A stretch of DNA of 64,000 nt, from contig OX327699.1 of NCBI GenBank assembly GCA_946807835.1, positions 1,304,501-1,368,500 on the forward strand, in the 5' to 3' direction. The DNA comes from Ailanthus altissimus. Taxonomy: Eukaryota; Streptophyta; Magnoliopsida; Sapindales; Simaroubaceae. The notes under the pieces were generated by a model, which was given only the letters and a program-made list of their open reading frames with translations, had not been told where the DNA came from and did not search any database. Within the stretch, counting starts at the first letter, position 1. The number at the start of each line of letters is the position of its first letter. The translations under genes and the position numbers were made by a program. Shown one piece after another: positions 22,259 through 24,577 of this stretch.

Positions 22259-22444
22259 TTAAGATTCTGATGCGGAAATATGAAGTGAATCCATAGCCTC
22301 AGCCAATTTTTGCTTCAGAGCATCAGGAGATTCTACAAAATCAAATACCTCTGTTTGGTCCATCTCGAGCAACATTGCAGTGACTTTTCCAGCATTGTCG
22401 CGCTCAAGACGCTCCATAAGGGAAGATAACCGTTCACCCAGCGT
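22259..22444 (-). other. Terminal exon encoding the MLLE domain of the fusion
   Basis: 186 nt, 61 codons plus stop, spliced in phase 0 after ...VTAAIAE. Over the first 55 residues I count 32 identities with the last exon of the PABP gene at 45571-45795, including KVT-MLLEMDQTEV, ESP-ALK and AEAM. Both exons begin at the same point (acgctgggtgaac here, atgctgggtgaac there) right after the splice acceptor, and both are phase 0. This is the pattern expected of acquisition of a whole PABP 3' exon. Confidence 0.9.
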
Positions 22445-24577
22445 CTATGATTGTAAACAGGCAAATATGAGGTTCGACAGGAGCATGCAGTTTTTATGAC
22501 AATGTAGAATTTTGTGAGGAAATGAAAGTTCCATCATTCAGGAATCAGTATACCATAACTCTCTAGAAATTCATTGCATGTTCATACCTCTGCAATTGCA
22601 GCAGTAACCAAAATAGTTTGAAATTGTTGGGTATTCGACGTCAATGCACGATCTTTCAATGGGCTCAAGATCTTGCTAATTTCAGGACTAAAACCATGAC
22701 TAATCAAGGTGTCTGCTTCATCCAAGACCTATCAAGAGATCTGTATCATCACTAAACATAAAAGGAATTGCATAGGAGAAAACACCAGCATTTTCAATTT
22801 CTCAAAAAATAAATAGAAAAAGATACATTAATGTAAGGTATCCATACAAAAGGAAGCACATAGATATATAGATAGAATGTTCTATATGATTAGTTAAACA
22901 AATTAGCATTTTAGCTTACTGACCAGATATTTGATGTCATCACAAAATACATTTCCCTCCTCTATGTGTTGAAGAATCTCACTGGGGGTTCCTACTAGCA
23001 TGCCAATTGGGGCATTCAAGACATCCTCCGGGGCTTTTGAGCTGTCACCATCGCTTTCCATTGAAGAGTTCAACCGGGCATAATGGCTGATGAACTTTGA
23101 AATATCAAAACCCTGCACAGCCCATCCAAATATGACTTTCAAAGGAACTCAGTATAATGTAACATAAAATGTAAATTCTCTATAAAGTACGAAAACGGAC
23201 TAGATACCTGGTCAGCTGATTCCTCTGTGGTGCACAACACAATGGCTCGAGGATGCTTAGGCTTCATAGCGACCAGTGCGTCATCTGTTCTCAGCATCTG
23301 CAAAATACTAGCCAATAGTAAATGCTCTTCTTCATCTAATCAAGAATATAACTCCATTAAAATATCAACATAATGAATTTTGCAATACCACCATTCCCAT
23401 ATTCTAATCAAGATTAGGACAAACAACAACTGTAAATCATTTAAGATTTCAGAAACAGAAGAGATATTAAAAGAAAACTCTATTTATTGAATTTCCACAA
23501 CAATATGGAAAAGTATATATAGATACATTAAGAGTTTTCAGAATAAGTATGCAAGTGCGCTGCAGCAAATGTAATATAACAAAAATTCCAGAAAATAAGC
23601 AAGTAGGTATGAAGCAGCAAAACATGCAAGTGCTGCCTAGAACTTTGGTTTTAAATTACAAAATCAAAATTTCTGCAGGATCTCATAATTATAACTACGG
23701 TTTTAGCTAATAACTGCTAATGCAGGAGCATAGTAAGGCCCCATATCGGATCCCTTTTTCTCTTTTTCTTTTTAATATAGAAGTTATTTTCTTGGTGGGA
23801 ATAGAAACGTTGGACTCTGTCCATATGTAAGCCCCAAAAGCACCAGCATTCAAGCAATAACAATCAAAAGCTTTTGCTTGAGGTATGATTTTCCCTCTTC
23901 TCAGTTCCTTGTCTTTTCTTTCAATTTTCAATCAGTTTCAGATGGTTCATAGCATACACCTACATCTGCAGCTACAAGTAATAATAATAACTCAAAAGAA
24001 AAAAAAAATCAAAATCTGAAACTCGGTGGATCAACAATATCATAACAAATATTAAAGAAACGCAAAGCATCAAATGCACCAACAAAAATGGAAGTACCTG
24101 AACAAGAGGCAACAAGTAAGACAAAGTCCTTCCAGAGGCAAAACCAGAACTCAACACCACAGACTTACCCTCCAAAATAGCAGGAATTCCAACACATTGA
24201 ATCTCGCTAGGAACGAAAACTCCCATCTTCTCCACAGCCTTTATCACCTCCTCCCTCAAACCCAGCTCTTGAAAACTCGAAACAACTTCTGTAGAAGGAG
24301 AACCACAACTCTTTTCACTCTTCAAGGTCATCCCAATAGAGTTTGATGGCTGAGGTTTGCTTTGTGGGTTGGCTTTGGCAGAGCCCTTGAGCTTTCTGAG
24401 CCTGAAATGTTCAAGAACGGAAGAGTCTTTTGCGGGTTTTGATGGAACTTCATGTTGGTTTCTTTCAGTTGGGTCATCGGCGGTGCAGAGAAGCCTGAGT
24501 GATGGAGATGAGTTGAGGGGTTTTGCTGAACAAACAAGTTTTGAGAGATTGATCAGTGATTTGCCTGTTCTTTTCAT
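22259..24577 (-). CDS. RH39-like pseudohelicase fused to a PABP-type MLLE (PABC) domain
   Basis: Five exons: 24577-24098, 23297-23208, 23112-22924, 22728-22588, 22444-22259. All introns are GT-AG and phase 0; 1086 nt, 361 aa. Residues 1-300 follow RH39: a basic leader, the Q motif (VPSEIQ) and a single RecA-like domain ending in VTAAIAE. Exons 3 and 4 have exactly the RH39 lengths (189, 141). Catalytic motifs are eroded: Walker A is SGFASGRT (144-151; GSGKT in RH39), Ia is TTEESADQ, Ib is TPSE, III is TAA. DEAD (256-259) remains. Residues 301-361 are not helicase but a PABP C-terminal MLLE domain (KVTAMLLEMDQTEV at 320-333). The second RecA domain is absent. I infer no ATPase or unwinding activity and possible PAM2-peptide binding. 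An intact frame over five exons argues against a pseudogene; expression is untested. Confidence 0.88.

Follow-up and report, generated by a model that had tools for sequence, protein, structure and literature searches.

We analysed a window of 64,000 nucleotides from Ailanthus altissimus (contig OX327699.1, positions 1,304,501 to 1,368,500), in which part of an RH39-type helicase gene is joined in frame to the MLLE domain of a PABP. The fusion gene consists of five minus-strand exons between positions 24577 and 22259 of the window, encoding 361 residues and a stop codon in an uninterrupted frame. The length of every exon is a multiple of 3, and all junctions are GT-AG and phase 0. Exon 1 (24577-24098) encodes a basic N-terminal segment resembling a targeting sequence, the Q motif and a degenerate motif I (SSGFASGRT). 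Exons 2 (23297-23208) and 3 (23112-22924) carry degenerate motifs Ia and Ib, with CTTEES in place of CPTREL and TPSE in place of TPGR, respectively. Exon 4 (22728-22588) retains the DEAD box next to an altered motif III, and stops at the place corresponding to where exon 4 of RH39 ends. Intron 4 (22587-22445, phase 0) is the boundary between the RH39-derived and the PABP-derived part, and beyond it exon 5 (22444-22259) encodes the MLLE domain, in the lineage of a linked PABP gene, and the stop codon.

Pfam searches identified a DEAD domain in the fusion product (residues 125-301, 3e-25) and an MLLE domain (PF00658; residues 300-353, 1.8e-16), the latter at 60.3 bits (cut-off 27). Exon 5 alone matches solved PABP MLLE domains, including that of wheat (2dyd_A, 2.5e-16). 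No Pfam match was found in the product for an RRM, four of which precede MLLE in PABP, or for the second RecA domain (PF00271). The original prediction, made from the sequence of the window, had described an in-frame fusion of 361 codons in five exons with GT-AG, phase-0 junctions and a terminal MLLE exon; the exon reading and both domain matches bear this out.

RH39 itself lies downstream of the fusion on the same strand (20180 to about 14043, minus strand), where it was located by tblastn with Citrus RH39. This tandem sister, of which exons 1-5 were read, has canonical motifs and the second half of the protein. Its introns 1-4 lie at places matching those of the fusion and are all phase 0, confirming the earlier assignment of fusion exons 1-4 to RH39 exons 1-4. 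The chimera tracks RH39 to a point shortly after motif III, where exon 4 ends, and the MLLE exon then replaces RH39 exon 5. Behind the fusion, no remnant of RH39 exon 5 or later exons was detected at E 0.01, and the presence of such relics was rejected.

An apparently complete PABP gene (48547-45571, minus strand), with RRM exons and an MLLE exon, is located 21 kb upstream of the fusion. A phase-0 intron directly precedes MLGEQ in its terminal MLLE exon (45795-45571, minus strand), as in the fusion, and the two exons start with ATG CTG GGT GAA and ACG CTG GGT GAA, respectively. The kinship of the MLLE exon with a PABP gene of the same window had been missed by the original prediction. To place it among its relatives, we searched the A. 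altissimus genome (939 Mb, 37 contigs), in which 15 MLLE loci were located, including the fusion itself; nine loci with the full stretch were compared and five partial or diverged loci were left out. At third codon positions, the fusion exon is identical to the window PABP at a fraction of 0.64 and to a sister copy on contig 9 at 0.72, with only 0.28-0.38 for the seven other loci. All 5000 codon bootstraps favoured the linked PABP lineage, and a ten-row DNA tree contains a split joining the fusion exon with this lineage (support 99/98). Synonymous divergence (dS, NG86) is 0.72 to the window PABP and 0.48 to the contig-9 copy, and undefined through saturation for the rest. Silent-site agreement, bootstraps and tree therefore assign the terminal exon, by sequence comparison, to the lineage of the linked PABP. 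We limit the donor claim to the lineage because the contig-9 copy is slightly closer than the window PABP. Amino-acid identity slightly favours other PABPs (L004 and others) as donor, a choice that the silent sites overrule. Beyond the exon itself, blastn found nothing in common between the flanks of the fusion and PABP MLLE exons.

The contig-9 copy (C9:3520001-3590000) is a PABP alone, as after loss following genome doubling. Within these 70 kb, RH39, the HPRT-like gene that neighbours the fusion in the window and the helicase half of the fusion were unmatched at E 0.01, so a homeologous fusion at this site was rejected. A homeologous fusion on contig 22 was likewise rejected, since only a PABP-like fragment is present there: a diverged MLLE stretch (L009, near 4728-4874, minus strand) that contains an in-frame TAG and probably represents a PABP copy that has decayed or been split.

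Proteins combining DEAD and MLLE domains are numerous. Two database searches, covering the best 120 of 291 and the best 120 of 812 matches, listed 168 proteins, among which at least 79 carry both domains: 70 of the 120 from the first search and nine further proteins from the second. Because these listed proteins carry both PF00270 and PF00658, a chance join is excluded. The carriers among the matches listed come from Citrus, maples, pistachio, cotton and cacao relatives, castor bean, oaks, pecan, legumes, eucalypts, cucurbits, Trema, papaya, Tarenaya, Liquidambar and Nepenthes, the last two lying outside the rosids. No asterid or monocot fusion was found among the matches listed.

Five contigs of 1,204-1,354 bases (P0050, P0053, P0056, P0125 and P0126) encode uninterrupted proteins of 253-306 residues across the junction, a stretch that introns interrupt in the window. 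They look like spliced transcripts, judging from their sequence, and their proteins resemble legume proteins by residues. Several NCBI entries of the fusion also carry isoform names. The search for plant proteins with both domains that had been proposed earlier thus returned many, and together with the short contigs across the junction they support a genuine fused gene and no split gene model. The RH39-PABP chimera is a real, widespread gene family with a traceable donor lineage.

A tree of the helicase half (203 columns; 35 fusions and 29 RH39 sequences, 64 in total, rooted on Nymphaea RH39) placed the 35 sampled fusions in a single clade (97/97), with Liquidambar as its first branch. The clade is nested among RH39 genes, with support of 80/81 and 97/80 at the forks; the branching order departs from that of the species, and the position of long branches, Nepenthes among them, is uncertain. 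Tree and matching exon ends together group the helicase half with the RH39 lineage. Fusion and RH39 locus tags are adjacent or nearly so in five species (Pistacia, Hibiscus, Diplodiscus, Reevesia and Jatropha), and not adjacent in Citrus x aurantiifolia, Tripterygium and Liquidambar. The simplest reading is that the fusion arose once, in an early core eudicot.

The helicase half has lost conserved residues across the family. The catalytic lysine of motif I (GKT) is kept in 4 of 70 fusions and replaced by R in 62, including the window, by T in 3 and by S in 1. The arginine of motif Ia (PTREL) has become D or E in 64/69 fusions and that of motif Ib (TPGR) has become E in 69/70. The glutamine of the Q motif is kept in 69/71 and the first D of DEAD in 68/70, the window reading VLDEAD. 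None of the 70 fusions from the first search has PF00271 in its precomputed Pfam annotation. Motifs I, Ia and Ib have established roles in catalysis and RNA clamping. With these motifs altered and RecA2 missing, the product is very unlikely to have either activity, as judged from its residues. The pseudohelicase character proposed in the original prediction is thereby upheld: the Walker lysine is mostly lost, two RNA-clamp arginines are acidic and RecA2 is gone. The arginine-to-acidic swaps, present in nearly all rows, look like a new surface more than decay.

We then considered the N-terminus. Residues 2-30 contain on average 5.8 K/R and 0.6 D/E in 57 fusions, compared with 3.4 K/R and 0.2 D/E in 72 RH39 proteins. 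Residue 2 is basic in 49/57 fusions, versus G or A in 52/72 RH39 proteins. The net charge of residues 1-6 is +2.77 in 43 fusions and +0.64 in the 72 RH39 proteins, and the helical moment of the N-terminus is 0.40 in fusions versus 0.27 in RH39. A cleavage motif of the presequence type, R-x-[FLYIM]-[SAC]-[ST], occurs in 25/57 fusions (2.8 expected from shuffles) and 44/72 RH39 proteins (5.1 expected). According to two papers, RH39 acts in plastids, on plastid 23S rRNA (PMC5442247, PMC11731035). The basic, amphipathic N-terminus suggests that the fusion product is likely imported into an organelle, mitochondria or plastids.

For the MLLE tail, we took pocket residues from the definition in the PABPC1-LARP4B structure paper (PMC7356810) and tested a pocket-A set of E564, F/Y567, K580, T582 and L586. 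The full set is retained in 0/71 fusions. Position 567 is aromatic (F or Y) in the PABPs used for comparison, but among 64 fusions it is F/Y in 7 and S in 52; position 582 is A or S in 54/71; and P600 is kept in 11/71. Scaffold positions are maintained (G579 71/71, E592 71/71, L603 70/71 and E587 69/71). A scaffold kept around a changed pocket indicates that the tail segment is constrained, likely for something other than the standard PAM2 peptide. The early-branching Liquidambar protein (P0028) retains F567, K580 and P600, suggesting that PAM2 binding may have been the ancestral state of the tail.

In this gene, the first four exons of a tandem RH39 copy are followed by a terminal exon from the lineage of the nearby PABP. 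From these observations we propose, tentatively and at somewhat less than even confidence, that the product would be a catalytically dead, single-RecA adaptor acting in mitochondria or plastids. Import would proceed via the basic amphipathic N-terminus. The RecA1 shell would then dock on a target taken over from RH39, either a site or a partner (RH39 itself acts on 23S rRNA in plastids), while the PABP-derived tail would serve as a binding or stabilising module for a ligand other than the standard PAM2 peptide. The likeliest net effect would be that organellar ribosome-assembly factors are tethered or modulated without RNA unwinding.

Several observations weigh against this proposal. N-terminal composition is no targeting prediction, and the R-x-[FLYIM]-[SAC]-[ST] motif, being frequent in RH39 too, does not separate the organelles. 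An acidic residue falls within residues 2-25 in 27/57 fusions versus only 3/72 RH39 proteins. Many of the basic N-terminal residues of the fusions are lysines, as in MKRTGKS. According to one study, the mitochondrial signal consists of multiple arginines and a hydrophobic motif, and lysine cannot replace arginine (PMC7031408), which weakens the mitochondrial case for such sequences. The MLLE core positions are hydrophobic in nearly all 71 fusions, so that the tail could still be a peptide-binding MLLE. Finally, both halves of the fusion product evolve faster than the sister RH39, with identities to Citrus of 80% for the helicase half, 81% for the tail and 93% for RH39, and to four other species of 56-77%, 60-70% and 86-91%, respectively; pairwise dN/dS values average two branches. 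This faster change suggests that relaxed constraint contributes.

The first competitor to the adaptor proposal, although we consider it unlikely, is that the main role of the PABP exon is to mend the fold. Its first helix and AMLLEM would replace the final helix and strand of RecA1, which disappeared together with RH39 exon 5, making the tail structural and no peptide receptor. In the AlphaFold prediction of the full-length product, the MLLE exon is indeed built into the RecA fold. However, PABP rows were absent from the input to this prediction, and many DEAD domains are familiar to AlphaFold. When exon 5 was predicted with just the PABP exon of the window alongside it, it was all helical (pLDDT 74, pTM 0.37). 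Moreover, the VIA range gives only the first and last aligned residues, other top rows ending anywhere in 339-359, and the last two MLLE helices are conserved, though unneeded for RecA repair. A further step along this line, which we regard as distinctly improbable, is that the captured exon changed its fold, an MLLE helix becoming the last strand of the RecA sheet. The half-helicase would thereby have become a stable pseudohelicase family, imported into organelles and retained from an early stage of core-eudicot evolution.

The original prediction had instead envisaged a pseudohelicase adaptor that could attach PAM2-containing proteins to a helicase-derived scaffold. On this view the product would be a cytosolic adaptor with an MLLE domain that binds PAM2 peptides in the usual manner. 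An MLLE match above the Pfam cut-off (found in 63/63 fusions of a set chosen for MLLE), G563 in 60/71 fusions, K580 in 40/71 and the Liquidambar residues are in keeping with it. The pocket counts at positions 567 and 600 and the empty tally for the pocket-A set oppose it, and an organellar-looking N-terminus would place the product away from cytosolic PAM2 proteins. Attachment of PAM2 proteins is thus poorly supported, and we judge such an adaptor rather improbable.

Still less credit goes to a dominant-negative relative of RH39, whose RecA1 shell would occupy the site of RH39 on organellar ribosome precursors with the tail incidental. Descent from RH39 exons with a related N-terminus and the retained Q motif and DEAD would suit such a role; yet the motif Ia and Ib arginines are acidic in nearly all fusions, and the tail is conserved about as well as the core. 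A decaying duplicate or gene-model artefact, to which the faster change and the lack of asterid or monocot fusions among the matches listed might point, is scarcely credible given the intact frames in many lineages of a single clade (a protein search finds intact ones only), the invariant residues of the tail and the short contigs across the junction.

The adaptor proposed here shares features with several known systems. It resembles RH39 in exons 1-4, four phase-0 introns, N-terminal type, tandem position and place in the tree, whereas RH39, which acts at the plastid 23S rRNA hidden break, differs from it in having RecA2, unaltered motifs I, Ia and Ib, a less basic N-terminus and no MLLE tail. 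With cytoplasmic PABP it shares the terminal exon, with the same phase-0 start, and MLLE core residues; unlike PABP, it has no RRMs and a remodelled PAM2 pocket, mostly S567/A583 and often L600/T597. UBR5/HYD E3 ligases, which are HECT ligases, also carry MLLE outside PABP (solved chains 3ntw and 1i2t) but are otherwise unrelated. In Ustilago Rrm4, the accessory MLLE1 and MLLE2 likewise belong to a protein other than PABP and have a changed pocket; Rrm4, however, binds RNA through RRMs, rides endosomes and has no helicase part (PMC9249222). We found no literature description of a DEAD-MLLE protein among the best-ranked matches listed, and a paper on plant MLLE partners names, in the portion available, a helicase only for DDX6 (PMC4574140). 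As far as these searches show, the fusion gene family is undescribed.

The locus offers a traceable case of exon shuffling, with the recipient's sister, the donor lineage and the product within 35 kb. It also defines a widespread plant gene family, many records of which are named simply 'RNA helicase 39', a name that would mislead because the product lacks the requirements of a helicase. If the adaptor proposal is true, a PABP-type domain would be predicted to work inside an organelle. The chimera is, in addition, a concrete test case for domain fold change after transfer.

Between PABP and the fusion lies an HPRT-like phosphoribosyltransferase gene (27878-25921, minus strand). Dipteronia and Acer protein records (P0008 and P0014) contain the HPRT-like gene together with the fusion, which suggests merged gene models and the same gene order in these genera. 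None of the Rfam families scored at or above its cut-off in the window. An open frame of 226 residues (44535-45212, plus strand) with repeated SKW..YMTQDD-like units stands tail to tail with the PABP gene; its EF-hand_11 match is sub-threshold only. A fragment of a Copia-type retrotransposon gag gene (PF14223, 1.9e-6) occupies 30673-31035 on the plus strand.
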